DNA of 33,155 nucleotides, taken from NCBI GenBank assembly GCA_017508425.1, contig JAFVYZ010000049.1, forward strand, positions 1 to 33,155. The letters are read 5' to 3'. This DNA is from Clostridia bacterium. Lineage in GTDB: Bacteria > Bacillota > Clostridia > Oscillospirales > CAG-272. Under the pieces are notes generated by a model that was given only the letters and a program-made list of their open reading frames with translations, made no database searches and was not told the DNA's origin. Below, in pieces: positions 16,382 through 32,789 of the stretch; the stretch's first letter is position 1; every line of letters starts with the position of its first letter. The position numbers and the translations under genes are program-made.

Positions 16382-16408
16382 AATGAAGCTCTCCTGTTGT
16401 AATTTGTC

Positions 16409-19400
16409 TCAATCCGTTACCGGAATGGGGTCTGTATCGATCGTCGTGACGTTGCCTGCGGCATCGGTCACGGTCAAGGTATATACCACCGTGCCGCCCA
16501 CCGTGATCTCACCTGACTTCAGCGTCGTTCGCACCGACAAGGTCTTGCCGAAGCTATCCGTCGCCACGGGGTTCAAAAGTGCATTTTCCACGTAATCGGG
16601 CAAAAGCGTTTTGGGCGTCAATGCCGTATTGGGACCCGTCACGTAGAAATAAAAATTGGTATAATATTTTTCCGAAATATTGCTGCTGTTGCGATAGCTT
16701 GAAACACAAATGATATCCCCAGCCTTCGCCGTAAAGGTCACCGAGCTATAGGTGGTGGAGCGCGCCATGGTCTTCGCCAGCACCCCCGCACCGGTCGTTT
16801 GATTATAAATGGCAACGTGCGTACCGTAAGAGTAATCGTTTGAGCCATTCTTATAATAAATGGTATAGGTGCCGTCGGCAGGGATGCTGAAATAATCGTA
16901 TCTGTACTTATCAAACAGCGACGTACCCTTCGTGGAGAAGGAGTACGAGCCGCTGACATTATTGTTCGCCGTTACAATATCCAACGCGAAATTACCATAG
17001 CCACTTGTGGTGGGCTGATACCACCCCGCGTAAAGGGTGAAGCTTCTGACGATATCGGTGGTGAAGTCATAGGGCTTGCCCGTGCAAGCGGCGTCAAGAT
17101 ACCAGCCGCGGAACACATACCCTTCTCGCGTGGGTGCTGCGGGATAAACAAGGCCCACCGTTTCCGTCACCGTTTGCGGTGCAAGCGACCCCTCACCGCC
17201 ATTGAGGTCAAACGTGACCGTCACACCCTTGCCGTCAATGGAAAGATATTCCTCACGGCTGATGCTGTTGCAGTTGTACTGCAGATCTGGGGTGGCATGC
17301 ACCTTGACGGTAAAGTAGCGAACATCCGTGTTCCCGTACTCATCCACAATGGATGCGGTAATGACCATTTCCTCACCCGCCACTTGTGCGCCCGAATAGA
17401 TGCTGACTGTAACCGTAAGCTCATTGCCCGAGGGAATGTCGGTGGCGGCAATACCAAGAAGCATCGCGCTGACGGTGTCACTCACCTTGATATCAAGTCT
17501 GCCTGCCATATCGATATAAGGCAAAGCATTCGGCACGTACGAATTACTGTAAGTACCAACAAAGCGGTAGTAAGCGCTCTGACCACCGTAATTAAGAGAG
17601 TTTCGGATCGTCACGCGCGAGGCCGATCTGCCGATCATGGTACCGATATCAGCGTTACCGCTTATGTCGCCCAGATTTTCGCACGAGGTGATCTCAATCG
17701 CGACGTTTGACCAGCCTACAAGACCGCCAACGTATTGCTGGCCCATCACGCTGCCTTGATTTTTACTGTATTCGACCTTGCCGGCATTGATAAAGCCCGC
17801 AAGACCCGCAACGTAATTTTCGCCCGTCACGTTGCCGCTGCTGATACTTTCAACGATCGACGCGTCGATGCGACCCACAAGACCGCCAACGTAGTTTTTA
17901 CCCGACACGTTACCGTTGCACTCGGAATTACTGATGTTGCCCGTAGCCCAGCCTGCAAGACCGCCGACGTAATGATCCGTGGCAACGATATCCACCACGC
18001 TCTTGCCGCCCGAAATGGCACCGCATTTGCCTGCAAGGCCGCCTACGTACGTGCGCGCCTCGCTGTTTTCGGTGAAAAATCCACTCGCAAGAACGCTGCC
18101 GTAGTTCTCACAATCCACAAGCTTAGTCGCATAACCCTGGCCGATAATACCGCCGACAAAGGCCGTACCCGACACGGTGTTATTATTAATGGCACCCGTA
18201 ATGGTGACGGTACTCGTCAGATACCCGACATACCCGCCAACACCGTAAACGCCCGTGACGTCCGCAAGGCTCTCCACGGCAATGATCTCACAGTTCGAGC
18301 TGAGCTCACCCACAAGACCACCTGTGTCATCCTTACCACTCACGGTACCGTTGTTCTGACAAATTTCAATTTTTGCGCCCGACATTGAGCCTGCAAGACC
18401 GCCGACCTCAGCGCCTGCACCCGTGACGTTGCCGCTATTGGTCGAGGTCATCAGCGATCCGTACAGGCGCCCGACAAGACCGCCAACAGCGGAAGCACCC
18501 GAAACGGTGCCCTCGTTGATCGAGCCCTTAAGGTCGCCCTCGCAATAGCCCGCAAGGCCACCCACGCGATTGCCCGTAGCCGTCAGATTGACGGTGTTTT
18601 TACCATCCTCAATACCCTTGCAGTAGCCCGCAAGGCCACCAAGATAGCTGTGCGGCTTTCCGTCCTCGGTGACAGTGCCCGTAGAAATGACCTCTCCGTG
18701 GTTTTCACACCCCGTCAGCTTGCCGCCGCATTTACCGACAATACCGCCAACGTACGCGCGGCCCGTGATGGTCGCCGTGTTTTTGTAAAGGGTAAGATTG
18801 CCCGAGGTGTAGCCGAAAAAGCCACCCACGTAATAACGGCCCGTGACCGCTGCCACATTGTTATCCCCCGAGCTGCTACCCGTAGAATAGCCCGCAACGC
18901 CGCCGACGTAGTCGCCTCTGCTCTCAACATCGCCCATGTTTTTACTGTTTTCAATCGTAGCGCACGTGCGGCCGAACAAGCCGCCGAGATAATCGCCGTC
19001 GGCCGTGATCTTGGCCTTGTTCTCAACGCCGCTTGCCGTGCCGTAGGCATCACCCACGATACCGCCAACGTAAGACTTGCCCGAAACAGCACCCTCGTTA
19101 ATGCACGAAGCGACCTCGCCCCTGCATTCACCAACGATGCCGCCCGTGTAATCGCCCGCCGTGATCTCGGCAAGATTCTTACAGCCCTCAATGAGAGAGC
19201 GATCGGTGCTCTTGCCCGCAATACCACCCACACGAGTGGCATATTTGGCATTCACCGTGCCCGACACGGTCACGTCGCCGATCGTACCCTGATTGGTACC
19301 GGCCACGATACCGATGCCCGACTTGTTGCTCATCGCCGTCACGGTCACGTTTTCAAAATGAATATCGTAGACCTCGCCCGTAAGGGTGCTGAAAAAGCCG

Positions 19401-19945
19401 AGGTTATCTGCATTGGCATTCAGCGTAAAATTGGATATTTTATGCCCCGCACCGTCAAGATAGCCCCCAAATTCAATGGACGACCAAACGGCACCGTCAA
19501 GATCGATATCGGCATTCAGCTGATAGGCCCCGTCCTTACCGTTAAGGCCCTTGAGCTCCTCAACCGTGCCGATCTGCTCGGCCGTAAAGGTGATGGTGAC
19601 CGTATTGCTTTCGGCAACCACCTTGCCGTTCTCTATATAAGAGAGCTTGATCGACACCGTGCCGGGGGCACCGGCCGTAACGTAGGTGTCAAACCAATGT
19701 CGATCATTGAGTCGGTGATTAAACTTGACTCTGGCGGTATTCTCACCTACGACCTCATATTTAATGTTATCCTGATAAAAGGGCTCGAAGCTGGCGGATT
19801 TGTCAAGAAAGACCTCCTCACCGACCTTGGCACTCTCCCCGATCGATATGGTGATCGTGCGGTCGCCGCCCTCCTCATCGTTCGAGCAGGCCACCATTCC
19901 CACCAAAAGCAGGAGCATCAGGAGCACCCATCCTATTTTCTTCAT
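16409..19945 (-). CDS. Large GLUG-repeat lipoprotein with InlB-type repeat and C-terminal beta domain
   Basis: 1178 residues. The signal peptide ends in lipobox GMVAC followed by an acidic linker. Residues 30-120 look like an Ig-like beta domain. From about 170 to 790 there is a long beta-helix of GLUG units (VGGLAGYCEG, VGGIVGDAYG and similar). A linker domain follows, then one InlB-type repeat at about 915-985 (VTFDLNGGEGS ... FRGWYLDAACTG ... LYAGW). Next is a beta-sandwich region of about 120 residues (FSIPADGTYTIYYKNG, CBM or pre-peptidase-like), then a final Ig-like segment (VYTLTVTDAAGNVTTI). It is a likely surface binding protein, sharing the GLUG part with the downstream gene 27 bases away. 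Its ribosome site (AAGAGA) is weak, so it may be made less than its neighbours. Confidence 0.85.
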   Translation of the reverse strand: MKKIGWVLLMLLLLVGMVACSNDEEGGDRTITISIGESAKVGEEVFLDKSASFEPFYQDNIKYEVVGENTARVKFNHRLNDRHWFDTYVTAGAPGTVSIKLSYIENGKVVAESNTVTITFTAEQIGTVEELKGLNGKDGAYQLNADIDLDGAVWSSIEFGGYLDGAGHKISNFTLNANADNLGFFSTLTGEVYDIHFENVTVTAMSNKSGIGIVAGTNQGTIGDVTVSGTVNAKYATRVGGIAGKSTDRSLIEGCKNLAEITAGDYTGGIVGECRGEVASCINEGAVSGKSYVGGIVGDAYGTASGVENKAKITADGDYLGGLFGRTCATIENSKNMGDVESRGDYVGGVAGYSTGSSSGDNNVAAVTGRYYVGGFFGYTSGNLTLYKNTATITGRAYVGGIVGKCGGKLTGCENHGEVISTGTVTEDGKPHSYLGGLAGYCKGIEDGKNTVNLTATGNRVGGLAGYCEGDLKGSINEGTVSGASAVGGLVGRLYGSLMTSTNSGNVTGAGAEVGGLAGSMSGAKIEICQNNGTVSGKDDTGGLVGELSSNCEIIAVESLADVTGVYGVGGYVGYLTSTVTITGAINNNTVSGTAFVGGIIGQGYATKLVDCENYGSVLASGFFTENSEARTYVGGLAGKCGAISGGKSVVDIVATDHYVGGLAGWATGNISNSECNGNVSGKNYVGGLVGRIDASIVESISSGNVTGENYVAGLAGFINAGKVEYSKNQGSVMGQQYVGGLVGWSNVAIEITSCENLGDISGNADIGTMIGRSASRVTIRNSLNYGGQSAYYRFVGTYSNSYVPNALPYIDMAGRLDIKVSDTVSAMLLGIAATDIPSGNELTVTVSIYSGAQVAGEEMVITASIVDEYGNTDVRYFTVKVHATPDLQYNCNSISREEYLSIDGKGVTVTFDLNGGEGSLAPQTVTETVGLVYPAAPTREGYVFRGWYLDAACTGKPYDFTTDIVRSFTLYAGWYQPTTSGYGNFALDIVTANNNVSGSYSFSTKGTSLFDKYRYDYFSIPADGTYTIYYKNGSNDYSYGTHVAIYNQTTGAGVLAKTMARSTTYSSVTFTAKAGDIICVSSYRNSSNISEKYYTNFYFYVTGPNTALTPKTLLPDYVENALLNPVATDSFGKTLSVRTTLKSGEITVGGTVVYTLTVTDAAGNVTTIDTDPIPVTD

Positions 19946-19969
19946 CGTAGTTCTCTTTTCTTTAAAAAA

Positions 19970-22075
19970 TTACAGCGCGCTCCAGATTCGGTTTTCAATA
20001 TCACACCAGCCGGGAGCCGTCTTGTAGGCGTTCAGAACGTCTCTGGTGTGATCCACCTGAATGCCGTAGTTGGCATCAACACCGGCAAACACACCCGTGC
20101 CGAGCGTCGGGGGCTCACATCTCACCACCACGGTAGTAAGAGCCGCGCAATTCGCAAACGCGCCATCGCCGATCGCGGTTACGTGACGCGGGATCGTTAC
20201 CTTCGTCACGGCCGTGAAGGAAAACGCGTTCTCGCCGATCTTCACAATGTTATGCGCGCTGATCGCCTCGGGGATCACCACCTCGGTATCGGTACCGAAA
20301 TACTGCTTGATGGCGTATCCGCCCGTGACCTCCTCCACGGCAAAATCACCGAAGATATTACCAAGCGAGGAAATACGGGAGGAAAGCGTACGCCAGCCGT
20401 TACTGGTCTGATAATTACGTACCATAGAGCTGTTTACATAAACGGCAAAGGTATCGGAGAAGCCCGAAAGTGCCGTATCGCTGAGCGTGGGGACCTTGGT
20501 AAGCTCCAGCTTCAATGCCTTGAGATTGGCGCACCCGGCAAACGCGCGCGCGTTGATGGTAAAGGTAGCCGCCGTGCTTGAGATGGTCACGTTAACAAGC
20601 TTGCGGCAATTTTCAAATGCACCCTCCTCAATCGTCGTTAGCCTGCTGCCACCGAGCACGATCGAGGTAATATTCGCACTGCTGAATGCGTAAGCCTGTA
20701 CCTTGACGGTGTCGGGATCAAGCGTATATGTCGTACCCGTCTTTGCAATAGGATACTGCACCAGATAGGCAGAGGTGCCGACCTTCGAGTAAAGTACGCC
20801 GTCGATCACCTTGTATTTCTCGTTACTTTCATCGACCTCAAAGGCGGCAAGCGACTTCATATCACGGAAGGCACCTGCGCCAATGCTTGAGACCTTGGCG
20901 GGAATCATCACAGCCGTAACAGACTCACAGCCGGCAAAGGCATCCTTGCCAATGGTGGTAACCTTTTGAGGAATAATGATGCTCTTCAATGCCACACAAC
21001 CCTTAAAGAGATTTTGCGGCAGGGTTTCTATGCCCGAGGGCAATACAATGCGCTCAAGGGCAGTACAGCCCTCAAAGGCGCCGCTATCAAATTCGGTAAT
21101 GGTCTGAGGCAACAGGATCTCGCGCACGGTGGTCGAAACGATTTTGCCCACACGCGTGACCTTTTTGTTGTAATAGGAGCTCGGCACCACCAAGCGCACG
21201 GCGTTGCCGACGCCCGTGTAACCAACCTTATATTCACGATCGTAATTGATGCTCGTGAACGTGAGGACCGCGTTGCTCCCCTCCTCAAACTTGGCATAAA
21301 GCGTCACGTTTTCCTCCGAGGAGGCTGGTACGGTATAGGGGAACTCCATCGGATAGAGCCGATCCTCATCAAAGCACCACGCAACCAAGCAGCTGTTATC
21401 CAGCGTACTGCCCGGCAGCTCGTAGATCACCGTGCCCGCCGTATAGGTCACACTCTTGACGGCGGTACCTTCACTGACAAATTGATAGGTGATCTTCTTT
21501 GCACCGAAGCGGGCGTACAGCGTAACGGTACCCTCGTTACCGGGGGTAAAGTGACGGTCGGTAAAGGTTTCGATACCCGACAGGGGCTTACCGTCACTGC
21601 CGGTGATCTGCTTGCCCTTTTCCTTTTCGGTAAACCAACCGACAAAGGAAAGCCCCTCCTTGACAAGCACGGGGAGCTGACCGATCTCAGCATCATAGGT
21701 TACACCCATATTCTCGGTGATATCACCGCCCGTAGCATCGCAATAATCAAAAATCAACACGTAGTTGTTCGGAATAAAGCGGGCATATATCTTGCTGGAA
21801 TTGCCACTCTTCCAAGTCTCGCCATTGCTTTTTCCCTGCGCATTGGTATAGGCGGTGCCGCCCTCCTTGGCACTGTACCACCCAAGGAAGGTATAACCCG
21901 TTTTAGTGGGCACGCCAAAATCATAGCTGCTGCCGACCGTAACCGTGACCTTCTCTCGAAGCGAGTCCCCATCGTAAAGCCCTACCTCCTCACTGCCGCC
22001 GCAGGCTGTCAGTATAACACCTACTGCAAGCAGTAACAAACACGCAAAGCACACCATTGCCGTCTTTTTGAACAT
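19970..22075 (-). CDS. BspA-type leucine-rich-repeat lipoprotein with InlB-type repeats
   Basis: 701 residues, first gene of the lipoprotein operon, with GGAGG seven bases before the ATG. The signal peptide ends in lipobox LTAC, then GGSEE. Residues about 40-265 hold three InlB-type units (GYTFLGWYSAKEGG, LSFVGWFTEKEKG, LYAKF ends). About 285-690 is a BspA/LRR_5 solenoid with the typical pattern LPxxIxxIxxxAFxGCxxLxxIxIP (for example VTTIGKDAFAGCESVTAVMI) and the BspA-type insert EKYKVIDGVLYSKVG. BspA-like proteins bind host matrix proteins or co-aggregate with other bacteria. The three-gene operon therefore seems to display a set of binding proteins on the cell surface. Confidence 0.9.
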   Translation of the reverse strand: MFKKTAMVCFACLLLLAVGVILTACGGSEEVGLYDGDSLREKVTVTVGSSYDFGVPTKTGYTFLGWYSAKEGGTAYTNAQGKSNGETWKSGNSSKIYARFIPNNYVLIFDYCDATGGDITENMGVTYDAEIGQLPVLVKEGLSFVGWFTEKEKGKQITGSDGKPLSGIETFTDRHFTPGNEGTVTLYARFGAKKITYQFVSEGTAVKSVTYTAGTVIYELPGSTLDNSCLVAWCFDEDRLYPMEFPYTVPASSEENVTLYAKFEEGSNAVLTFTSINYDREYKVGYTGVGNAVRLVVPSSYYNKKVTRVGKIVSTTVREILLPQTITEFDSGAFEGCTALERIVLPSGIETLPQNLFKGCVALKSIIIPQKVTTIGKDAFAGCESVTAVMIPAKVSSIGAGAFRDMKSLAAFEVDESNEKYKVIDGVLYSKVGTSAYLVQYPIAKTGTTYTLDPDTVKVQAYAFSSANITSIVLGGSRLTTIEEGAFENCRKLVNVTISSTAATFTINARAFAGCANLKALKLELTKVPTLSDTALSGFSDTFAVYVNSSMVRNYQTSNGWRTLSSRISSLGNIFGDFAVEEVTGGYAIKQYFGTDTEVVIPEAISAHNIVKIGENAFSFTAVTKVTIPRHVTAIGDGAFANCAALTTVVVRCEPPTLGTGVFAGVDANYGIQVDHTRDVLNAYKTAPGWCDIENRIWSAL

Positions 22076-22262: not shown

Positions 22263-23261
22263 ATGTCTTACCTTCCCAACGAAAAAAGATACGAGAAAAT
22301 GACCTACAACCGCTCGGGCGCGAGCGGCCTGAAGCTGCCTGCCGTGTCCCTCGGGCTCTGGCACAACTTCTCCTCCAGTGACAATTTCTCAAACATGAAG
22401 TCACTTTGCCATACCGCCTTTGATCTTGGCATTACGCATTTTGACCTTGCCAACAACTACGGGCGCCCCGAGCCGGGGAGCGCGGAGAGCAACTTCGGTA
22501 AAATTTTAAAGGAGGGGCTTGGCGCTTACCGCGACGAGCTCGTGATCAGCACCAAGGCCGGCCACCCCATGTGGGAGGGCCCCTACGGCGACCACGGGAG
22601 CCGCAAATACCTGCTCGCAAGTCTTGATGCGAGCTTAAAGCGCATGGGGCTTGACTACGTGGATATTTTTTACCACCACCGCCCTGACCCCGATACGCCG
22701 CTTGAGGAAACGATGGGCGCGCTCGACCAAGCCGTGAAGAGCGGCAAGGCCCTTTACGTCGGTCTTTCCAATTACGACGGGGAGCGTATGACAAGGGCCG
22801 CCGAGATCCTCTCTGACCTCAAATGCCCCTTTATCATCAATCAAAACCGCTACTCGATCCTCGATCGCAGGGTCGAGCAAAACGGATTGCTTGACGCCGC
22901 CCTGCGCGAGAACAAGGGCGTGATCGTATACAGCCCCTTGGCACAGGGGCTCCTCACCGACCGCTACCTCAACGGCGTGCCCGAGGACAGCCGTGCACGC
23001 TCGGGCAGTATCTTTTTGAACGAAAAGCTCATCACCGAAAACACACGCGAAAGGATCGGAGCATTGAATGAAATTGCCGCCGCACGCGGCGAAAGCCTCG
23101 CGCAAATGGCGCTGGCGTGGGTCCTGCGTGCCCCTGCCGTTACGAGCGTTTTGATCGGTGCCTCCAAGGCCGCGCAGATCTGCGAAAACGTTAAGGTACT
23201 AAATAGCGCCCCCTTCAGCGCCGAGGTGCTGGCAAAAATTGATGAGATTGCCCTCGGTTAA
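22263..23261 (+). CDS. Aldo/keto reductase, YghZ/Gpr type (L-glyceraldehyde 3-phosphate reductase-like)
   Basis: 332 residues with AAAGGAGGA six bases before the ATG. The TIM-barrel AKR tetrad is complete: Asp in THFDLANNYG, Tyr in NNYG, Lys in VISTKAG and His in DIFYHHRPD. The NADPH-binding end is also present (SPLAQGLLTDRYL, VLIGASKAAQI). The N-terminus YNRSGASGLKLPAVSLGLWHNF and HTAFDLGITHFDLANNYG are typical of the YghZ/Kv-beta-like AKR14 subgroup, which reduces L-glyceraldehyde 3-phosphate and toxic aldehydes such as methylglyoxal. A very strong promoter suggests constant high expression. It is a single-gene unit. Confidence 0.9.
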   Translation: MSYLPNEKRYEKMTYNRSGASGLKLPAVSLGLWHNFSSSDNFSNMKSLCHTAFDLGITHFDLANNYGRPEPGSAESNFGKILKEGLGAYRDELVISTKAGHPMWEGPYGDHGSRKYLLASLDASLKRMGLDYVDIFYHHRPDPDTPLEETMGALDQAVKSGKALYVGLSNYDGERMTRAAEILSDLKCPFIINQNRYSILDRRVEQNGLLDAALRENKGVIVYSPLAQGLLTDRYLNGVPEDSRARSGSIFLNEKLITENTRERIGALNEIAAARGESLAQMALAWVLRAPAVTSVLIGASKAAQICENVKVLNSAPFSAEVLAKIDEIALG

Positions 23262-23280: not shown

Positions 23281-23315
23281 AAGCCGCGAAAGCAGTTTGC
23301 TTTCGCGGCCTTTTT
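23281..23315. terminator. Bidirectional terminator between reductase and redox operon
   Basis: Perfect 12-base stem GCCGCGAAAGCA/TGCTTTCGCGGC, three-base loop, CTTTTTC on the plus side and TTTTTT on the minus side. Confidence 0.85.
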
Positions 23316-23317
23316 CG

Positions 23318-24589
23318 TTATTCCATCGTGCGGTAATCAAGCACGGGCCAGTCGGCAGGCGGATCGCCAAGATCGGGCACGTCAAGGAGCACGCCCCCCC
23401 GAAGCGCGGACTCGTGCGCGATAAGCCCCGGGATATTGTACCTTGCCGTCGCCCAGATGTTGGTGGGCGAGAGCTTGCCCGTTTCGTAGGCACGGCAAAA
23501 ATCGTCAATGAGGAACTGATGCGTGCCGTTGTGGCCGTTCTTTTGGCCCTCAAACTCACGCGGCAATCTCTCGGTGGGCTGAATGGGCGCCGTTTTCTCG
23601 GTGCCCGAAAAGCCCTTGGCGTCGGCCAGGAGCTGGATCGCCTCGTCGTAATTTTCGTTAATCGCCTCAAAAACTGCCTTTGGCTGCAGCCTTTCCGTCA
23701 CGTCGCGCATCTTCACATGCCCCGGACGGTCGGGATCCCACGTAGCTTGATGGTGGCGTGCAACGGAAAATTCGTAGCCGCCCTCCGAGCCGAAAAACTG
23801 CGAAATATAGGTCTCGGGAGCGTGCCAGCCAATGCAACGGTTCTCGCTGATCCTCGCCACACCTCCGTTTGAAAGCTGAAGCAGCATCATCTCACAGGAG
23901 AAGGGGTTGTTGTAATGATTTTGCCCATCTGTGCCGTAAATATCGGTACGAGGGCTTTTTGCAAAGCCAACGGCAGCGACCTTTTTGGCATAGACGCCGG
24001 GCATGGCACTCAGGACCATCGAGGTCGAGTGCGTAGGGTAAAAGAAGGGGGGCACGCCGGCAAATTTGCGCCAATCGTCACCACCCGAGCTCTTGAAGCT
24101 CTCCTCCATATTGCGGATATCGTGGTTGTACTGCGCCTCGGCGTAAACGAATTTACCGAAGGTGCCCTTTTTGAACTCCTCACGGCAGTAAATGGCGGCA
24201 GGGCGATAAAAGCCGGTCTCGCCCATTGAGTACGTCAGGCGCGTTTCGCGCACCAGGCGCTCGATCTCCATAAGCTCCTCGACCGACACGGCACCCGGCA
24301 CTGCCGAATACACGTGCTTACCGGCCTTCAGGGCCGCGATCACCATCGGACCGTGCATTTCGCGCGGCGTGAAGATGGCCACGGCGTTGATCTCCTTGGC
24401 ACTCAGCGCGTATTCAAAGCTTTCACAGCGCAGCACGCCGAAGCGCTCGGCAAAATCCTCTTCCCGATCCTTTCTCTTATCGCAAACGTAAACCGCCTCG
24501 ACCACGGGGTGGGCCTTAAAAAGCGGCACGAAGAAGCGCGAAAAGCGCCCACAGCCAATGACGGCAATTCTCATTTTTTCTCTTGTCAT
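23318..24589 (-). CDS. Gfo/Idh/MocA-family NAD(P)-dependent oxidoreductase, last gene of the redox operon
   Basis: 423 residues. The N-terminal Rossmann fold is clear (RIAVIGCGRFSRFF, residues 7-20), followed by NAVAIFTPREMHGPMVIAALKAGKHVY. The usual catalytic EKP motif reads AVP (96-98), so the conserved lysine is absent. The C-terminal half has the usual alpha/beta dimer domain with FYPTHSTSMVLSAM and a long HNGTHQFLIDDFCRA helix. Members oxidise or reduce sugar, inositol or related hydroxyl groups with NAD(P). Its ATG overlaps the stop of the upstream gene by four bases (ATGA), with AAGGAG six bases ahead, so it is translated together with the hydrolase. Confidence 0.88.
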   Translation of the reverse strand: MTREKMRIAVIGCGRFSRFFVPLFKAHPVVEAVYVCDKRKDREEDFAERFGVLRCESFEYALSAKEINAVAIFTPREMHGPMVIAALKAGKHVYSAVPGAVSVEELMEIERLVRETRLTYSMGETGFYRPAAIYCREEFKKGTFGKFVYAEAQYNHDIRNMEESFKSSGGDDWRKFAGVPPFFYPTHSTSMVLSAMPGVYAKKVAAVGFAKSPRTDIYGTDGQNHYNNPFSCEMMLLQLSNGGVARISENRCIGWHAPETYISQFFGSEGGYEFSVARHHQATWDPDRPGHVKMRDVTERLQPKAVFEAINENYDEAIQLLADAKGFSGTEKTAPIQPTERLPREFEGQKNGHNGTHQFLIDDFCRAYETGKLSPTNIWATARYNIPGLIAHESALRGGVLLDVPDLGDPPADWPVLDYRTME

Positions 24590-26076
24590 ATCTTACTCCT
24601 TTTTCCAAGCACGTCGGCGGACATTTTGGCAAATACGTACTGCCCCGTGCCCGTTACGTGCATCGAGGCCTCACCCTCGCCAAAGGCCAGGGTCACGTGA
24701 AGCTTGCCGGCGTAGGTATCGGTCACCTGCAGCAGGATCATGAGGGTATTTTCGTCCACGAAGGCCGCCGAGGCCATCGCGTCGTACGCACCCACCTCCC
24801 ACACGCCCATGCGATCGGCACGCGCACGCTCACCAAAGGAAAATTTCGTTTTTTTGTGAAAGCCAAGGCCAAACTCAAACCCGAGGGGCTTGCCGTCCCT
24901 GACGAAATCAAGGCGACCGCCCTCCCCCTCAAAGCACACCGAGAAGCGCTCAATGCCGAGCGCATTTCCAAAAACGCTCTCAAAGCTCGCACCGTTTACG
25001 GTGCTTTTGAGGGGGCTCTCGACACTGCCGCGCTGTACTCGAAGCGCGCGCGACCCCTCATAGGCCGTAAGCGCCGCCTGTGCCACGGGGTCCACCTCGC
25101 CGCTTTTTTTGTCAAACAGCGGTAGCAGCAGCGTTGCAAAGCTGTGGTAAATAAGCTCCGGGGCGGCGCCGGCGCCCTGATCGTCGGCGTTGATCACCAG
25201 CGTCACGTCACGGTGCTTATCGTAAAGCGCCAGCTGATCGCCCGCGCCCACGAGCGCGAAGCCCACGGGGGTGATCCACGTAAGGTACCCGTAGCCCGAG
25301 TTTTTCAAGGGCCCGACGCCTGCGTAAACGTCGTTATGGGTCATCGGCGAGATGGCGTCGCGCATAAAGCGCGCATCAATATACTGCTTGCCGCCGACGT
25401 TGCCCTCACAGGCAAACAGGCGCGCGAGGATCAAAAGATCGCGCGTGGTGCACATCACGCCCGAGTCACCCACGCCATGCCCACCGGGCTCCTTTAAAAC
25501 GTAGCTCTCCTTTGAGAACCCGAGCTCCAGCAAGACCTTTTCCTTTAAATAGGTGAGAAAATCCTGCCCCGTCAGGCGCTCAATGATGACGCCGAGCAAA
25601 AAGGAGCCGATGCTGTCGTAGGTGAAGTAGGAGCCGGGGGCCTTGGCGCTTTTTTGCGTGTAATAGGCCTCGACCCTGGTTTTGAATTTGCCCCACCACG
25701 CCACGTTGGTGGTGATATTGCTCTTCATTTGAAGCATATCGCGCACGCGACAACGGGTGTAAAGGCCATCGTTCGTATTTTCGTTCAAAAATTCGGGGAA
25801 ATAGTCGATAATGACGTCGTCAAGACAGAGCAGTCCCTCGGTCACGGCTACGCCCACGGCGGCGCTGACGAAGCTTTTGGATACCGAATACTGTCGGTGC
25901 AACGTCGCCGCCTCAAAGGGCTTGTAATAGGCCTCGTAAACGACGTCGTTGCCTCGCGCGATCAGGAGCGAATGGGTGAAAAACCCGACGTCGTCAAGGG
26001 ATTTTACAAACGAAAGCAGATCCGCCGAGGCAACGCCTGCCGCCTCGGGCGCGATCCTTTTCAACGCCAATGCCAT
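24586..26076 (-). CDS. SxxK serine hydrolase (beta-lactamase/class C PBP-like esterase family)
   Basis: 496 residues from an ATG one base after the upstream stop with GAGG ahead; a longer TTG frame is less likely. The nucleophile motif is S64-V-S-K67 in RQYSVSKSFVSAAVG. The second motif YxN is replaced by Y-D-S in YFTYDSIGSFLLGVIIERLTG. The third region AGDQLALYDKHRDVTLVINAD matches the G-x-GQ strand of this family. A C-terminal extension of about 170 residues is beta-rich. There is no signal peptide, so it should be cytoplasmic. Family members hydrolyse esters, amides or D-amino-acid peptides. Its place between the [4Fe-4S] proteins and the oxidoreductase suggests it trims an ester or amide from the pathway compound (inference). 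Confidence 0.85.
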   Translation of the reverse strand: MALALKRIAPEAAGVASADLLSFVKSLDDVGFFTHSLLIARGNDVVYEAYYKPFEAATLHRQYSVSKSFVSAAVGVAVTEGLLCLDDVIIDYFPEFLNENTNDGLYTRCRVRDMLQMKSNITTNVAWWGKFKTRVEAYYTQKSAKAPGSYFTYDSIGSFLLGVIIERLTGQDFLTYLKEKVLLELGFSKESYVLKEPGGHGVGDSGVMCTTRDLLILARLFACEGNVGGKQYIDARFMRDAISPMTHNDVYAGVGPLKNSGYGYLTWITPVGFALVGAGDQLALYDKHRDVTLVINADDQGAGAAPELIYHSFATLLLPLFDKKSGEVDPVAQAALTAYEGSRALRVQRGSVESPLKSTVNGASFESVFGNALGIERFSVCFEGEGGRLDFVRDGKPLGFEFGLGFHKKTKFSFGERARADRMGVWEVGAYDAMASAAFVDENTLMILLQVTDTYAGKLHVTLAFGEGEASMHVTGTGQYVFAKMSADVLGKRSKI

Positions 26077-26077
26077 A

Positions 26078-27037
26078 TCAATCCTCACGCTTGCCCGTTT
26101 CAAACTGACGGGTCGAAAGCTGCCAATCGGGCTTTTCGCGGAAAGGGTGGTTGAATTTTTTGGTCAGCACACCCTTCGCCTCCAGATGGATGTAGCAGGC
26201 GCGGTCGCAGGCGCGGCCGCAGATCGAGGTGCGATAAAAATGCTTTGCCGGGGGGTAAAAATAGATCTGATCGAGCACGTCCTTGGCGCTCTCGGCGTCA
26301 AAGCGAGCGCGGCCGTTGATGATATCCATTCTTGTTTCGGCAGGATAGTCGGGGAAGGCCTCGGGGGGCATAAAGGGGTTCTTGGTGCCGTTGGCACCGC
26401 TGTAATACACGGCGCACTGCCAGCTGTTGAGTTTGCCCGTGTCGTCGATCGCGCCACCGTGGCAGGCCTTGATGCACTCGCCGCACCCATCGCACAGCGA
26501 CGGGGTGAGCATGGGCGTGGCCTCAAGCTCCATATCGGTCAAAATAAAGCAGTAGCGGATAAAGGGGCCGTATTCGGGCGTCAGGAGCGAGCCGATCATG
26601 CTTCGCTCGCCAAGGCCGCACTTGACGGCACAGCCAAGAAAGTCCAGCTGTACTTCCTTCGTCACACCGCGATAAACGTCGCTGTACTGCATTTCGGGGT
26701 TGGTTTCGTTCTCCCCCTCCACGATCAGAGGGCTCTTGCGCTGAGGCAGGGCGATATATCCCTCCTGCTCAATGAGATTCGACACGCGCAAAAGCGCCAT
26801 GGGCATCACGGTCTCCTCTAAGTTTTCAACGCCCATCGTGGTGTATTGGTAGTAGGTCGTGCCCTCCTCCACGCCGCGATAAATGCCGCGAAGCACGCGA
26901 AAGCCAAGACCGATGACGGTCTTCACCCCCGGGAAAAGGCGGAACACGGGGTCTTTTTTCTCGAAGCGATCGGCCGGGGCAAAGCCCACGATATCAGCAT
27001 CGCATTTTTTAGCCAGCGCGATGATCTGCTCTCTCAT
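26078..27037 (-). CDS. QueG-like double [4Fe-4S] protein, third paralog of the operon
   Basis: 319 residues from the ATG overlapping the upstream stop (ATGA) with GGAGGGG five bases ahead. The N-terminal half has the QueG/reductive-dehalogenase-like cofactor domain pattern (CDADIVGFAPADRF, KTVIGLGFRVLRG, KCGLGERSMIG, LTPEYGPFIRYCFILTD). Cluster ligands are C182-x2-C185-x2-C188-x3-C192 followed by His instead of the usual Pro, then C208 in SWQCAVYYSGA, then C273-x3-C277-x3-C281. That makes eight Cys for two [4Fe-4S] clusters in the same order as epoxyqueuosine reductase. QueG uses cobalamin and electrons to remove an epoxide oxygen. The paralog probably performs another reductive step; cobalamin binding is not proven by sequence. 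Confidence 0.8.
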   Translation of the reverse strand: MREQIIALAKKCDADIVGFAPADRFEKKDPVFRLFPGVKTVIGLGFRVLRGIYRGVEEGTTYYQYTTMGVENLEETVMPMALLRVSNLIEQEGYIALPQRKSPLIVEGENETNPEMQYSDVYRGVTKEVQLDFLGCAVKCGLGERSMIGSLLTPEYGPFIRYCFILTDMELEATPMLTPSLCDGCGECIKACHGGAIDDTGKLNSWQCAVYYSGANGTKNPFMPPEAFPDYPAETRMDIINGRARFDAESAKDVLDQIYFYPPAKHFYRTSICGRACDRACYIHLEAKGVLTKKFNHPFREKPDWQLSTRQFETGKRED

Positions 27038-27942
27038 AGCTTCCCCTCCTCCTTCAAGTGCTTGTAGCACGCCACCTCGCAGGCCTTGCCGCAAAGGCAA
27101 GCCACATACCCGAGGTGCGTGTTGGGTAAAAATTTCAGCGACGGGAAGAGTGCCTTGGCGCTCTCGGCGTCAAATCGCTTCTCGCCATCAAGGATCGCCT
27201 CACGCTCGGGGTGATCCTTCAAAAAATCATCGGTCATAAAGGGGTTTGACCTGTGCGCACCGCGATAATACACGCTGCACTGCCAGCTATCAACACCCGT
27301 ATTGGGGTCAATGGCACGGCCGGGGCAGGCCGAAAGGCATTTGCCGCACCCGTCGCACAGCGCCCCCCCAAAGGGCGCGTCGGTTTCAAGCGGCATATCG
27401 GTGATGATAAACACCCAGCGCATAAAGCTACCGTATTTCGGCGCGATCACCTTGCCGTGGAGACCCACGCTGCCAAGGCCGCACACCTCGGCCGCCTTGC
27501 CAAAATCAATGAGCACGTCGGGGGTGGCCTTACCCTCGGCCACGGGCGAGGCAAACTCGAGCTCGTACACACGACTGACCTCGGGGTTCATCGACTTATC
27601 GCCCTTGGCGCGAAAGCCGGGGACGCTGCGTTGCAGGCACGCGTCGTACCCACAGTCCTCGATCATCGCGCCCATTTTCAAAAGAAAGATCTCGGCGAAG
27701 CTCTCGTCGTTGTATTTCACCCCAAGGTTTGCGTAATTAAAATATTGATTTTTTTCGGCCATGGCCATATAAAGCCCCCTTGGCACGGGCAGGCCGAAGC
27801 CGATGATGCAGGTAGCGTTCGGCAAAATCTGCAGCGGGTCGCGCTGAAGCGCCTCGCCCCGAAAGTGCTTGATATCGCCGATGCCGCACACGGCGGCGCC
27901 GAGCTCAAGCGCTCTTTGCTTGATCATTTGAGCTGTTATCAT
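27034..27942 (-). CDS. QueG-like double [4Fe-4S] protein, second paralog of the operon
   Basis: 302 residues, started at the ATG overlapping the cupin stop (ATGA) with AAGGAG seven bases ahead. It is built like its two neighbours: ELGAAVCGIGDIKHF and ATCIIGFGLPVPRG at the N-terminus, VCGLGSVGLHGKVIAPKYGS, then VFIITDMPLE. Cluster ligands are C196-x2-C199-x2-C202-x3-C206-Pro, C222 (SWQCSVYYRGA) and C284-x3-C288-x3-C292. The 5-Cys plus 3-Cys order is that of QueG (COG1600). It is the closest of the three to the third paralog (shared NPFM, RFDAESAK and ACYxHL segments), so those two look like a later duplication. The shortest of the set; substrate unknown. Confidence 0.8.
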   Translation of the reverse strand: MITAQMIKQRALELGAAVCGIGDIKHFRGEALQRDPLQILPNATCIIGFGLPVPRGLYMAMAEKNQYFNYANLGVKYNDESFAEIFLLKMGAMIEDCGYDACLQRSVPGFRAKGDKSMNPEVSRVYELEFASPVAEGKATPDVLIDFGKAAEVCGLGSVGLHGKVIAPKYGSFMRWVFIITDMPLETDAPFGGALCDGCGKCLSACPGRAIDPNTGVDSWQCSVYYRGAHRSNPFMTDDFLKDHPEREAILDGEKRFDAESAKALFPSLKFLPNTHLGYVACLCGKACEVACYKHLKEEGKL

Positions 27943-28301
27943 CCTAAAACTCCTTCTTCGGGGTGCGGATCGCGCACCTCGGTATTTTCCTTGCTCGTAT
28001 TGCTGTGCTCCACCACGAAAAGCAGAGCGTCGGGGGTCGTTTTTACGTGGTGCCACGTCGCCCTTTTGACGTTATAGGCGCGCCCCCTTTCAAGGGCCGT
28101 GGCACACTCCCCCTCATCCTCGATCGTGTAGATCGTGGCGCCGCCCTCGATGAGGACGAACACCTCGTCGGTTTCAAGGTGGCGCTTAAAGGTTTTCTTC
28201 TCCCCGTACTCCTCACTGTGCGTAATGAAGGCCGTTTTAAACCCGGGGTAAGTGGTTTGCAGGCAAAAGCCCTTTTTACTGACGGTACTGATCTCGATCA
28301 T
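27939..28301 (-). CDS. Small cupin-domain protein
   Basis: 120 residues with one double-stranded beta-helix. The first cupin motif is KRHLETDEVFVLIEGGATIYT (His41, Glu46, Gly53) and the second is RGRAYNVKRATWHHVKTTPDALLFVVE (His84 and His85). The first motif has one His rather than HxH, so metal binding may be incomplete. Such small cupins act as isomerases, epimerases, dioxygenase relatives or ligand-binding stabilisers. It overlaps both neighbours by four bases (ATGA) and is embedded between the first and second QueG-like genes, so it must work in the same pathway. The reaction is unknown. Confidence 0.8.
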   Translation of the reverse strand: MIEISTVSKKGFCLQTTYPGFKTAFITHSEEYGEKKTFKRHLETDEVFVLIEGGATIYTIEDEGECATALERGRAYNVKRATWHHVKTTPDALLFVVEHSNTSKENTEVRDPHPEEGVLG

Positions 28302-29380
28302 CGGTCCATCTTCCAGGGCTTGGCGGTGTGGCGCAAGGGGGATTTGAAGCGCCCCTCCATACAGCCGCCCTTCTTTTCAAGCATGCTGACGCAAGCACGG
28401 ATACAGCCGCCGCACTTGGCCATATTGTAGCCGACCCAGCTGGGGAAAAATTTTTCAAGTGCGGTATAGACCTTCATAACCTCTTTTTCGTCTGCCTTGT
28501 CGGTGACGCCCTCAAGGAGGTCGAGCATGCCTCCCTCGTTTTTGTCAAACACCTCCTTGGGCACAAAGGGGTTGTAATAACGGCCCGCGTGGGTATAAAA
28601 GGCGTAGCAGCGCCACATATCAATGTCGCCCCACTCGCACTTTTTGCCGGCCACCTCAACCGAAATGGTCTTGCCGGAATTGATCGCGGGGATGCAGCCG
28701 CCGGGGCATTCCCTGACGCACGCACCGCACTTACGACAAAGCGGCTCACCCGAATACATCTCGTCGTATTCAAGCTCGGCGTCGGTAAAGATAAACGCCA
28801 CACGCTGAAGGGGCCCGAACTCGGGGGTCAGGAGCATCTTGCTCCAGCCGATCTCGCCAAGGCCGCACGCAACGGCCGCAAGACGGAATTGAAACTGAAG
28901 ATCCGGCGGCTGCTTACCCTCCTCGGCAGGCCTTGTGAACTGCACGCTTCGGTGGTGCGCGGTCTTGGTCTTGGCGTGCTTGCTGATCTCAATTTGCTCC
29001 TCGGGCGAAAGGGTGTTGCCGGGCGTGCCGTCCATATCGGAAACGGCGCCGCGCGCACCCGTGTTACGGTACACGAACGCCTCGTACCCGGCGTCCTCGA
29101 TCACCTTGCCGACGTGGTAAAGCACGGCCGGGGCGTGGATCTCGTTGATGCCGCCATAGGCCATCGAGGGGTACTGATAAAACTGCGTGCCCTCCTCAAT
29201 GCCGCGCTGAACGCCGCGCGGAATGCGAAAGGCCATGGCAATGCAGCTCTTGGCGCGTGGGAACAAAAACTGCGGGTTCATCACGTCGGGCGCGCCCGAA
29301 AAGCGCGACAGGGGGCCGATGCCGCAAAGATCCGCCCCTGCCTCAAAGGCCGCCTCCTTAATCATTTTGCTGGTAAGCAT
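28298..29380 (-). CDS. QueG-like double [4Fe-4S] protein, first paralog of the operon
   Basis: 360 residues, the longest of the three. The start lies 23 bases inside the upstream gene and has GGAGG six bases ahead. Landmarks are AGADLCGIGPLSRF, AKSCIAMAFRIPRG, ACGLGEIGWSKMLLTPEFGP and VAFIFTDAELE. Ligands are C215-x2-C218-x2-C221-x3-C225-Pro, C258 (MWRCYAFYTH) and C323-x2-C326-x3-C330. It carries two inserts absent in the other paralogs: about 25 residues near 110-140, and about 20 residues (around 232-252) between the first cluster and Cys258. It is the most QueG-like in its second cluster spacing (CxxCxxxC). The partner insertions suggest a different substrate or partner from the other two. 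Confidence 0.8.
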   Translation of the reverse strand: MLTSKMIKEAAFEAGADLCGIGPLSRFSGAPDVMNPQFLFPRAKSCIAMAFRIPRGVQRGIEEGTQFYQYPSMAYGGINEIHAPAVLYHVGKVIEDAGYEAFVYRNTGARGAVSDMDGTPGNTLSPEEQIEISKHAKTKTAHHRSVQFTRPAEEGKQPPDLQFQFRLAAVACGLGEIGWSKMLLTPEFGPLQRVAFIFTDAELEYDEMYSGEPLCRKCGACVRECPGGCIPAINSGKTISVEVAGKKCEWGDIDMWRCYAFYTHAGRYYNPFVPKEVFDKNEGGMLDLLEGVTDKADEKEVMKVYTALEKFFPSWVGYNMAKCGGCIRACVSMLEKKGGCMEGRFKSPLRHTAKPWKMDR

Positions 29381-30365
29381 AATTCTCCTCCAATTTCACA
29401 AACGCGTTTTCGGCGTTTTGATAGATCAATTTTCCATTTTCAACAACGCGCTCGATCCTGCCGTTTTCGAGCACGTAAGGGTATATCGTGCCTGCGTGAT
29501 TTGGCTCAAGCAGCTCTGCCATATTGCCGCAGTAGCTCTTTTTTTCAATATAAGCGCGAAGGACGCGCTCGGGGCGCTCGTGTACGCGCGTCGCCAGCTT
29601 CATCGCGGGGGTAAGGTGCTCAAAAAGCTCCACGTCCTCGGGGCGCACGTAGTTTGTCGCGTCAAGCAAGCCCGCCTTGTTTTTGGCAAGATACGGTCTG
29701 CAAAGCCCCTCAAACTGATACCCGTTATCCATTTTTGAAGCCCCTGCCTCATGTGCCACCAGATTGTCGTGGAAGGTGTGTGCCGCGCAATCGTTGAGAC
29801 ACCCGCTGTTGGCGAGCAAATACATTTCCTTGCCGTTTTGGTCACACCAATCGCGCAACACCTGCAAGGCGTTTAGATCACGATTCAGCTCCCGCTTGAC
29901 GTAAAAGCTGTCAAAAAGCTCGGATACGTACTCCATGCCCTTTACACTGCCAACACCCATATTGACCGAGGCACGCACGTCAAGCTCCTTAAAATTTTGC
30001 TTTAAAAATTTTGCAACAAGCGGCGAGGTTGTCGTAACCGACGCAAGAGAAAAATGAGAAGCTATGTATTCTACCGTTTCACCGACCGTCACAAAAAACG
30101 ACTTGGATTGTGCGACGTCGCCGTAGCAATTGGCATTAAAAAGCAAATTAAAGGCAAGCCCCTCGCCATGCAAATAGGCAAGATCTCGCAGCTGCTTTGC
30201 CTGTGCCTCCCAGGGTGTAAGAGATGCGACCCGCGTTTGCGCGTTGCGGCCGCTGGGGGCGGCGCCCCACGAAAAATAGACCTCCCAAATATCCTTTTTC
30301 AGGCGCACAATTTCTTTTAGAAATTGGTCCGTAGCGCCCGTGGTATATCCAACCGAAAATTTCAT
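29358..30365 (-). CDS. U32/UbiV-like TIM-barrel protein, first gene of the redox operon
   Basis: 335 residues from an ATG with GGGGGG five bases upstream; a longer frame adds ten residues that precede the predicted transcript start. It has the rhythm of a TIM barrel (MKFSVGYTT, WEVYFSWGA, GLAFNLLFNANC, SVTTTSPLVAKFL, LDVRASVNMGVGS, DSFYVKREL, EMYLLANSGCLNDCAAHTFHDN). The cysteine set C80, C174, C189-x3-C193 and C222 resembles U32-type proteins such as UbiU/UbiV, TrhP and RlhA, which carry a [4Fe-4S] cluster and support oxygen-independent hydroxylation. If that holds, it would add an oxygen function that the QueG-like enzymes then process. The family call is moderate; an amidohydrolase-like or radical-SAM-like barrel is less likely (no CxxxCxxC). 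Confidence 0.55.
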   Translation of the reverse strand: MKFSVGYTTGATDQFLKEIVRLKKDIWEVYFSWGAAPSGRNAQTRVASLTPWEAQAKQLRDLAYLHGEGLAFNLLFNANCYGDVAQSKSFFVTVGETVEYIASHFSLASVTTTSPLVAKFLKQNFKELDVRASVNMGVGSVKGMEYVSELFDSFYVKRELNRDLNALQVLRDWCDQNGKEMYLLANSGCLNDCAAHTFHDNLVAHEAGASKMDNGYQFEGLCRPYLAKNKAGLLDATNYVRPEDVELFEHLTPAMKLATRVHERPERVLRAYIEKKSYCGNMAELLEPNHAGTIYPYVLENGRIERVVENGKLIYQNAENAFVKLEENYAYQQND

Positions 30366-30386
30366 GATATCCCCCCTTTTATCTTG

Positions 30387-30415
30387 ATTATACATGAAGC
30401 AGCATCATTTTCATA
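30387..30415 (-). promoter_or_regulatory. Activator-dependent-looking promoter of the redox operon
   Basis: Minus strand perfect TATAAT at 30387-30392, but the -35 region 17 bases upstream is poor (TATGAA). An inverted repeat ATGAA...TTCAT spans 30394-30414, exactly over spacer and -35. A weak -35 covered by a dyad next to a divergent AraC-type gene suggests activation by that regulator. Confidence 0.45.
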
Positions 30416-30455
30416 GCAAAAAAACAAAGCGAAAGCATAACAAAACAAATTTTTC

Positions 30456-30484
30456 TTGATTTTTCGGGAGCCCTGTGCTACAAT
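30456..30484 (+). promoter_or_regulatory. Promoter of the AraC-type regulator
   Basis: TTGATT, 17-base spacer, TACAAT; start near 30491, some 24 bases ahead of the chosen ATG. Confidence 0.7.
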
Positions 30485-30514
30485 AAAGCCGAGAACATGA
30501 AAAAGGAGCACGCC

Positions 30515-31357
30515 ATGACGCTTGAAAAGCTAAACCCCTTTATTCGCCACGCACAGCTTCACGCCTATCATCACGCCACGCGCGAGGACAGCATTTGCTA
30601 TGACTGCCGCCTGTTTTACGCCAAGCAAGGGTGCGGAAGCTTCCACGTAAACGGGGAAATTCACCCGTTTAACCCGGGTACCTTGATCTTTTTACCCCCG
30701 AGAAGCGAATACCGCTTCTCCTTCCCCGAGGGGGTGCCGATCGGCTTTTACGTATTAAACTTTGACCTGACCAGCGAGTTTTCAACCCTCTCCAAAAGTC
30801 TTGGCATTGCAACGAGGAGCACCTTTGACGCCCAAAAGCTCCCCGTCTACGAGCTGCCCGAGGAGCTTTCAAATATAATTATTCAAAGAAACGCGACCAC
30901 CGTTCTCGACCCGATCGAGCGTTGCATCCGCCTGTTTTTGCGAAAGGATAGCTACTATAAGCTCTTTGCATCGGGGTACCTCAAGCTGGCGCTCATACAG
31001 CTTTTGTGCGAGCAACGGGGCGAGAAAAGCGATTATCGCCTGGTGGAGGGCGTGCTTGAATACATCCGCGAGCATTACCAAAGCCCCGAGCTTAACAACG
31101 ACGCGATCGCCGCGCATTTCAGCTATCACCCCTATTATCTGAGCGACCTCATCAAGCGCCACACGGGCAGGACCCTGCACCATCACCTGATCGAGTACCG
31201 CCTGCACATGGCGCGCCACTACCTTGCCACCACCAACCGGAGCGTTGCCGCCGTGGCCGAGGAGGTGGGCTTTGCCTCCTACACCTATTTTATTAAAAAG
31301 TTCCGCGAGCGCACGGGCATAACGCCCCTGCAATACCGCAAAAGCATGGTAATATAA
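30515..31357 (+). CDS. AraC-family transcriptional regulator (cupin sensor plus two HTH)
   Basis: 280 residues. I chose the second ATG because AAGGAG lies six bases before it; the first ATG (30497) lies almost at the transcript start. Residues 1-130 form the AraC sensor cupin (GCGSFHVNGEIHPFNPGTLIFLPP). After a helical linker, residues about 175-275 carry the paired helix-turn-helix domain: SPELNNDAIAAHFSYHPYYLSDLIKRHTG for the first and SVAAVAEEVGFASYTYFIKKFRERTGITPLQYRK for the second. It is divergent from the seven-gene redox operon with about 150 bases between the starts, so it is the likely local activator responding to the pathway substrate. Confidence 0.92.
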   Translation: MTLEKLNPFIRHAQLHAYHHATREDSICYDCRLFYAKQGCGSFHVNGEIHPFNPGTLIFLPPRSEYRFSFPEGVPIGFYVLNFDLTSEFSTLSKSLGIATRSTFDAQKLPVYELPEELSNIIIQRNATTVLDPIERCIRLFLRKDSYYKLFASGYLKLALIQLLCEQRGEKSDYRLVEGVLEYIREHYQSPELNNDAIAAHFSYHPYYLSDLIKRHTGRTLHHHLIEYRLHMARHYLATTNRSVAAVAEEVGFASYTYFIKKFRERTGITPLQYRKSMVI

Positions 31358-31589: not shown

Positions 31590-32723
31590 TTAAAACGTGA
31601 GTCCCGGGGACTCGTCTCTCGTACCGAAGGGGATGTCGATCTTCTCGCCGCGCAGGTCGGCGCAAAGCGCGTTATAGATCCACTGCCGCAAATGGCGGTT
31701 GGGGGCCTTTAACACGTGCTGTGCATAGTAAAAGGTCATATTATTGACCGGATCGACCGAGGCGTATGCGCCTGCGGCGCCGCTCCAGCCAAAATCGGTG
31801 CAGGTATCCCGGTACGGCGTGCGCATGCCAAGGCCGTATCCAAGACCGGGCTTCCATTTATTGAAGGGAACATGCTGCTCGGGCGTCAGGCGATCGGTTG
31901 CCATCATGGCGATCGTTTCCTTTTTTAAGATCACGTCGCCGATGCGCAGGGCCTCCAAAAACTTGATGTAATCCTCCACCGTGGAAATGCAGCCGCCACC
32001 ACCGCCGGCAAATTCCTTGCCGAGATGACACCAGAATCGCCACACGGGCACGTACTCACCGGTTTGCGCATCGTATTGATATTGCTTGGCAAATCCCTCC
32101 CAATCCTCGATCGGATGCAGGAAGGTCGAGTGATCCATGCCAAGGGGCTCAAAAATATGCTTCTTGATGTAGCATTCGAACTTCTCGCCCGAAATAACCT
32201 CAATAAGGGCGCCCAGCACATCGTGCGCAAAGCTGTATTTCCAACCCTCGCCCGGCTCGTATTCAAGCGGAACCTTGGCGAACATATTGATCGTCTCTAC
32301 CGTGGGGCAGTTGTTGCCGGGGATAGCATAGTACTCCTCAAGCACGGGGTCGTGCATGGCGTAGCCCATGCCTGCGGTCATCTCAAACAAATGCTTGATC
32401 TTGATGGGGTTTTTGGCTTTTCTCACCCCGTCCTCGGTCTTTACCGTCATTTCGGCAAAGGCAGGCAGGTAATCACAAAGATGATCCTCGAGCGAAAACA
32501 AGCCCTTTTCCCACAGCTGCATCGCAGCGGCGCAGGTGATCAGCTTGGAGCAGGAATAGATGTGATATTTTTCCTTTCCGCTCATGGGGATCTTGTTCTC
32601 GGGGTCGGCGTAGCCGCCCATGTGCCTGAGGATACACTCACCGTCCTTATAAACGATCAGGTCAAAGCCGGGAATACCCATATCAAGGAAATGCTGACAT
32701 AGCGCTTTGGTTTGTTCAAACAT
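31590..32723 (-). CDS. SxxK serine hydrolase (beta-lactamase-related esterase family)
   Basis: 377 residues from an ATG with GGAGG seven bases ahead; the longer frame would start upstream of the predicted transcript. Motif one is S57-C-S-K60 in YHIYSCSKLITCAAAM. The second motif position reads Y163-S-F (WKYSFAHDVLGALIEVISGE) where the family has YxN. The third region is DFGWSGAAGAYASVDPVNNMTFYYAQ, matching the (H/K)xG strand as GWSGAAG. No signal peptide, so cytoplasmic. Such enzymes cleave esters, beta-lactam-like amides or D-peptides. It is only distantly like the hydrolase in the redox operon. It forms its own transcription unit and is flanked on both sides by hairpin arrays. Confidence 0.88.
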   Translation of the reverse strand: MFEQTKALCQHFLDMGIPGFDLIVYKDGECILRHMGGYADPENKIPMSGKEKYHIYSCSKLITCAAAMQLWEKGLFSLEDHLCDYLPAFAEMTVKTEDGVRKAKNPIKIKHLFEMTAGMGYAMHDPVLEEYYAIPGNNCPTVETINMFAKVPLEYEPGEGWKYSFAHDVLGALIEVISGEKFECYIKKHIFEPLGMDHSTFLHPIEDWEGFAKQYQYDAQTGEYVPVWRFWCHLGKEFAGGGGGCISTVEDYIKFLEALRIGDVILKKETIAMMATDRLTPEQHVPFNKWKPGLGYGLGMRTPYRDTCTDFGWSGAAGAYASVDPVNNMTFYYAQHVLKAPNRHLRQWIYNALCADLRGEKIDIPFGTRDESPGLTF

Positions 32724-32789
32724 AAAAGAGCCTCCAATATCCGTTCGTTTCACAAGAAGCTGAAAAAGCGGCGTTTGTGATTTCAAAAC

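Follow-up and report, generated by a model that had tools for sequence, protein, structure and literature searches.

A conserved operon of a U32-like protein and three RdhA/QueG-type double-cluster paralogs in Clostridia as a possible anaerobic reductive system

The epoxyqueuosine reductase QueG is a Class III cobalamin enzyme, in which a cobamide domain is joined to a core with two [4Fe-4S] clusters. Reductive dehalogenases of the respiratory type carry a twin-arginine signal, and a membrane-anchor gene lies beside the catalytic gene. In both QueG and the dehalogenases, electrons travel from the clusters through a base-off cobamide to the substrate (PMC4646009). The U32 oxidases are reported to use prephenate as an organic oxygen donor and to have four conserved cysteines and a [4Fe-4S] cluster; their chemistry is still unproven (PMC11574389). 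In the anaerobic hydroxylation of ubiquinone by UbiUVT, a U32-type protein acts with an iron-sulfur partner, which is itself a second U32 protein (PMC6747719). Here we describe an operon on a 33,155-nucleotide stretch (the window) of a Clostridia bacterium (GCA_017508425.1, contig JAFVYZ010000049.1), in which a U32-like protein likewise has an iron-sulfur neighbour, but one of the RdhA/QueG type. Three such paralogs (Q1, Q2, and Q3) are present, next to a divergent regulator, an arrangement that sets them apart from QueG. The locus comprises the following features:

29358-30365, minus strand: U32-like protein, 335 aa, first gene of the operon, TIM barrel predicted, Cys 80, 189, 193, and 222 invariant
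28298-29380, minus strand: Q1, 360 aa, RdhA/QueG-type double-[4Fe-4S] protein, best conserved of the set
27939-28301, minus strand: small cupin, 120 aa, Cupin_2 match under its cut-off, optional accessory
27034-27942, minus strand: Q2, 302 aa, RdhA/QueG-type double-cluster paralog, sister of Q3
26078-27037, minus strand: Q3, 319 aa, RdhA/QueG-type double-cluster paralog
24586-26076, minus strand: serine hydrolase of beta-lactamase fold, PF00144 at 91 bits, optional accessory
23318-24589, minus strand: Gfo/Idh/MocA protein, sugar-dehydrogenase-like, PF01408 at 74 bits, SAVP at the EKP position, optional accessory
30497-31357, plus strand: AraC-family regulator, 286 aa, PF12833 and PF02311, divergent from the operon
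30366-30496, no strand: AraC/U32-like intergenic region, 131 bases, promoter-like sites in both directions

Re-examination of the open reading frames (ORFs) of the window, with gene starts picked by us from ribosome-binding-like sequence upstream, agreed with the earlier note on this DNA in the seven genes, their order, and all junctions. Four junctions are ATGA overlaps (Q1/cupin, cupin/Q2, Q2/Q3, and hydrolase/Gfo-Idh-MocA), U32-like/Q1 overlap by 23 bases, and Q3/hydrolase are separated by a single base. The AraC-family gene starts 131 bases from the start of the U32-like gene.

Relatives of the U32-like protein are encoded on 420 stretches of the genome collection. Locus counts were made on the best 80 of these, which are biased towards the window's type, and ORF picking favoured ORFs matching the window's proteins. 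All 80 come from metagenome-assembled genomes. For 47, the record title mentions a gut site of goat, sheep, deer, or buffalo; two of the 80 belong to Lentisphaerae or Victivallales (L115, L130). The order and strand of U32-Q1-Q2-Q3 were kept in 61 of the 64 loci that have 4 kb or more of downstream sequence, and this recurrence places the four-gene order above chance. In L081, one of the three exceptions, the Q genes lie across the AraC gene; in L090 no Q was recognised, and L130 has U32-Q1-Q2. Genes usually lying apart, the outcome that the earlier note had named as contrary to its proposal, were looked for in these related loci and did not occur; the conserved synteny supports one functional unit. 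An AraC gene was directly upstream and divergent in 61 of the 75 loci with at least 1.3 kb of upstream sequence, which makes the AraC control proposed earlier plausible. More distant U32-like relatives often had a single Q, and an AraC-like gene was near the pair in six of eight pair-type loci listed (L042 among these).

Of 295 genomes of the order that were searched, 20 encode the U32-like protein, and no further member of family f1, to which the window's genome belongs, is among them. By our comparison of the matches, the U32-like gene was beside a Q gene in 20 of 23 places; the exceptions were G027, where the contig ends about 500 bases past the gene, G261, which has a Q1-Q2-Q3 set on a different contig from the U32-like gene (C229), and the distant relative in G292. 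The Q profile matched 26 of the 295 genomes, namely 18 of the 20 U32 carriers and 8 others. Among 398 sampled genomes of the phylum, only two encode the U32-like protein: that of the window and a second one, which likewise has a U32-Q pair. None of the 18 viral stretches that matched a pattern encoded a U32-like relative, and no plasmid match to Q1 was found. Titles and abstract openings in the literature yielded no description of this gene set, which, with subscription journals mostly uncovered, is no proof of its being unpublished.

Each Q protein has eight cysteines for two [4Fe-4S] clusters in the QueG order (Q1: C215, C218, C221, C225, C258, C323, C326, C330; Q2: C196, C199, C202, C206, C222, C284, C288, C292; Q3: C182, C185, C188, C192, C208, C273, C277, C281). 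The spacing of the second motif differs, with Cx2Cx3C in Q1 vs. Cx3Cx3C in Q2 and Q3, as was previously noticed. All eight were invariant in Q1 (72/72), Q2 (69/69), and Q3 (67/67), as were the four cysteines of the U32-like protein (81/81), in counts that leave out proteins under 330, 280, 290, and 290 residues, respectively. The predicted structure of Q1 has an RdhA/QueG-type fold, with the cobamide domain and double-cluster core of Class III enzymes and both cluster motifs, in line with the QueG-like character first assigned. A model without a cofactor pocket and both cluster sites was not seen, a result that covers Q1 at fold level, pocket size not being part of the test.

By family models, the set is distinct from QueG, as the earlier note had maintained: TIGR00276 scores were 28.1, 48.7, and 28.9 bits for Q1, Q2, and Q3 vs. 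a curated cut-off of 200, and PF08331 gave no match at E up to 0.1. This cut-off is strict in this order, since its short QueG-like genes miss it too (31 of 59 genomes matched, none of the 59 over the cut-off; for example G000:C47:58570-59196). Scores against the reductive dehalogenase model TIGR02486 were 38.8, 44.6, and 38.5 bits vs. a curated cut-off of 160.35, and there was no RR within the first 40 residues of any of the three, which distinguishes them from PceA and NpRdhA. By the features tested, the Q set is neither QueG nor a respiratory dehalogenase; it represents a lineage that shares their core fold and has an unusual partner of the U32 fold.

The U32-like protein has a predicted U32 TIM-barrel fold. 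No Pfam or NCBIfam family, PF01136 (Peptidase_U32) included, matched at E up to 0.1, so the label "U32/UbiV-like" given to the first gene rests on this fold. A profile search reached 5d88 at E 0.019 only, and an hhalign comparison with a TrhP-like protein of the same genome was not significant. The U32 spacing given in PMC6747719 is CX6CX15CX3/4C, with separate patterns for UbiU and UbiV; none of these patterns is present in the window's protein, which has CXnCX3CX28C. The protein thus differs from the U32 family (5d88; UbiU/UbiV, TrhP, RlhA) in both respects; its likeness to enzymes of oxygen-independent hydroxylation is one of fold only, and its cysteine spacing is not that of UbiV. Two canonical U32 genes lie elsewhere in the genome of the window, as does a short QueG-like gene under the QueG cut-off. 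A distant U32-like protein in G292 (L030:9337-10476) gave a weak TrhP match (19.5 bits vs. a cut-off of 534), in a genome with no Q match at E 1e-20.

Sequence divergence was unequal across the core. With seven pair-type loci left out, mean pairwise identity was highest in Q1 (0.84), followed by Q2 (0.66), Q3 (0.64), the U32-like protein (0.55), and AraC (0.33). Distances of Q2 and Q3 correlated at 0.89. Identities and distances alike come from a set that drops proteins of 220 residues or fewer, matches of 100 bits or fewer, and genes at least 5 kb from the U32-like gene. Alignment A1 contained the window protein and 20 of 22 U32-like relatives (those of G292 and of G243 on L040 left out), and alignment A2 contained 39 chosen Q proteins. 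A tree built from 43 Q domains gave a single clade for each of Q1, Q2, and Q3, with Q2 and Q3 as sisters (100/99); the position of Q1 relative to the other clades was not resolved. In four of the seven pair-type Q proteins compared (L029, L047, L049, L050), one second-cluster cysteine is a glutamate, which could make the cluster site-differentiated.

Related systems also have several Q domains. Within the order, the Q profile also recovered two-gene QA+QB sets belonging to this superfamily (L132, L133, L134, L135, L143, L144), with no U32-like match in those stretches. Sets of 299-308 plus 591-597 residues on L136 and L137 represent three Q domains, two of them fused, and two-Q-domain proteins of 738-808 residues occur on L132, L138, L139, L140, and L145:

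L136:959-3675, two-Q-domain chain next to a third single Q
L137:415-3094, two-Q-domain chain next to a third single Q
L132:9845-12169, two-Q-domain chain
L138:5003-7429, two-Q-domain chain
L139:2629-4935, two-Q-domain chain
L140:3249-5465, two-Q-domain chain
L145:5880-8189, two-Q-domain chain

In the chains compared (all but L145), one second-cluster cysteine was often replaced or unaligned. The regulator-like neighbours that were scanned included AraC-type proteins on L132 (two) and L138 (one), and a 250-residue neighbour on L139 matched nothing. The multi-Q sets and fused proteins suggest that Q domains may work in multiples.

The reading we favour, at about even confidence, is an AraC-induced, cytoplasmic, anaerobic reductive system in which a heteromeric Q1-Q2-Q3 cobamide reductase and its U32-like partner would act on a small molecule. 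Each Q protein would be a Class III-type cobamide enzyme, with a cobamide-binding domain and two filled [4Fe-4S] clusters. A single heteromeric reductase appears most likely, with Q1 as the substrate-facing core and Q2 and Q3 as an accessory sister pair. If the Q proteins work as QueG and the dehalogenases do, electrons would enter through their two clusters and reach the substrate via a base-off cobamide. The U32-like protein, the regular partner of Q1, would bear one [4Fe-4S] cluster on its four cysteines and may deliver electrons or handle an oxygen function of the substrate. Overall, a C-O (or C-X) bond would probably be cleaved by two-electron reduction. The hydrolase, cupin, and sugar-dehydrogenase-like proteins might free or trim a conjugated, perhaps glycosidic, substrate.

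Several observations weigh against this reading. The U32-Q1 distance correlation fell from 0.83 to 0.40 without the seven pair-type loci, and U32-like genes without a recognised Q nearby exist (L090, G027, G261:C229, G292). The fused Q domains were considered as Q1, Q2, or Q3 orthologs and rejected, as they are placed on other tree branches; since they are not of the Q2/Q3 branch, the case for a Q complex is an indirect one. Structure prediction among the Q proteins covers Q1, not Q2 or Q3. Accessory genes vary widely, and the ten pair-type-locus neighbours scanned share no common pathway. A cobamide has been seen in no member, and its binding is proposed from analogy. The DYH motif described for QueG in PMC4646009 is absent from all three Q proteins. 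Nor did profile alignments locate the corrin-facing Tyr of QueG/RdhA; this residue could not be mapped because the alignment to Escherichia coli QueG spans QueG 146-224 only, a stretch that takes in the end of the cofactor domain and part of the first cluster region. Cobalamin riboswitches were not enriched among carriers (13/20 vs. 181/295 genomes), for which reason they were dropped as a marker of B12 dependence, and none was found in the window's own genome. That genome, 83% complete, also had no match to the B12-uptake-type binding protein PF01497. It does encode a MetH-like ORF with a DxHxxG motif. Because this motif is tied to B12 use, the host cell likely uses B12.

The earlier note had instead proposed three related reductive steps, each Q acting alone on a different intermediate of one pathway. 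Since all eight cysteines are kept, each paralog could be a complete enzyme, and the differing second-cluster spacing of Q1 vs. Q2 and Q3 would suit separate roles. Single-Q loci beside the U32-like gene, the close covariation of the Q2/Q3 sisters, the far stronger conservation of Q1, and the fusion of Q domains in related systems did not bear this out; together, the last three features fit one multi-subunit enzyme at least as well, and we regard three successive steps as unlikely. Conservation also bears on the idea that the U32-like enzyme is the real catalyst, with the Q proteins supplying it as electron carriers or in B12 processing: as the most conserved member (0.84 vs. 0.55), Q1 suits a catalytic core better than a carrier, which leaves this idea with little probability.

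A reductive dehalogenase system for organohalides would account for PceA-type dehalogenases being the best PDB sequence and fold matches, yet QueG fits the fold about as well, and the low TIGR02486 scores and missing twin-arginine pair make such a function very improbable. An RNA-modification system would be in keeping with QueG and several U32 oxidases, whose target is tRNA or rRNA (PMC4646009; PMC11574389). A divergent AraC gene, the patchy occurrence within the order (20/295), the accessory sugar and hydrolase genes, and the presence of two canonical U32 genes and a short QueG-like gene in the same genome all speak against it, and we consider it highly unlikely.

Of the 64 loci counted for gene order, 25 have the cupin, 24 the Gfo/Idh/MocA gene, and 5 the hydrolase. 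Of the earlier proposal that all seven genes serve one pathway, the conserved core stood, but the cupin, hydrolase, and dehydrogenase proved optional. PDB matches of the hydrolase were 6-aminohexanoate-dimer-hydrolase-like chains, and those of the Gfo/Idh/MocA protein were DgpA, sugar 3-ketoreductase, and GH109-type chains. EKP is the usual motif of this family; in all 27 orthologs, the window's included, the site reads [SC][AS]VP, a difference from DgpA-type glycoside dehydrogenases. Neither DgpB nor DgpC was named among the neighbours scanned with Pfam, although no search was aimed at them. Single relatives have GH3, DUF5696, an EamA transporter, an aldose epimerase, or radical SAM genes. 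Ten neighbours at ten U32-like loci of the order, scanned for a common partner, comprised one AraC and nine mutually unlike proteins. The accessory genes of single relatives and the DgpA-like protein hint at a glycoside-linked small molecule as substrate; given such varied accessories and no common pathway, this substrate class is put forward tentatively.

Consensus matches in the region gave 8 promoter-like sites vs. 3.9 in shuffles and 16 terminator-like sites vs. 13.2. A minus-strand promoter-like site at 30414-30387 (10/12 consensus) reaches slightly into the longer U32 ORF, and a plus-strand site lies at 30456-30484 (9/12). A hairpin at 23283-23309 (12-pair stem, plus-strand T-run) separates the operon end from a convergent aldo-keto reductase gene (22263-23261, plus strand; 429 bits to the L-glyceraldehyde 3-phosphate reductase model, cut-off 448). 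An Rfam scan of the window at gathering score gave no match. Beside the AraC gene is a second beta-lactamase-fold hydrolase (31590-32786, minus strand), nearest to the methyl acetate hydrolase AcmB (111.6 bits vs. a cut-off of 550). Three large proteins (899, 1178, and 701 aa) encoded at 13682-22075 on the minus strand begin like lipoproteins and, as judged by eye, contain repeat-like sequence.

A more speculative, rather doubtful extension is that a heteromeric cobamide enzyme and a U32 iron-sulfur protein carry out a new anaerobic reaction that recurs in herbivore-gut Clostridia; for example, an ether or hydroxyl bond of a plant aglycone might be cleaved reductively, the U32 partner either accepting or donating the oxygen function. 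Class III cobalamin enzymes and U32 oxidases are two anaerobic enzyme classes with few solved reactions, and here they are regular neighbours. The adjacent regulator offers a handle on the inducer and the two-gene core of U32-like protein and Q is the minimal set for expression, which opens the chemistry to direct tests in a gene set that recurs in many herbivore-gut bacteria.

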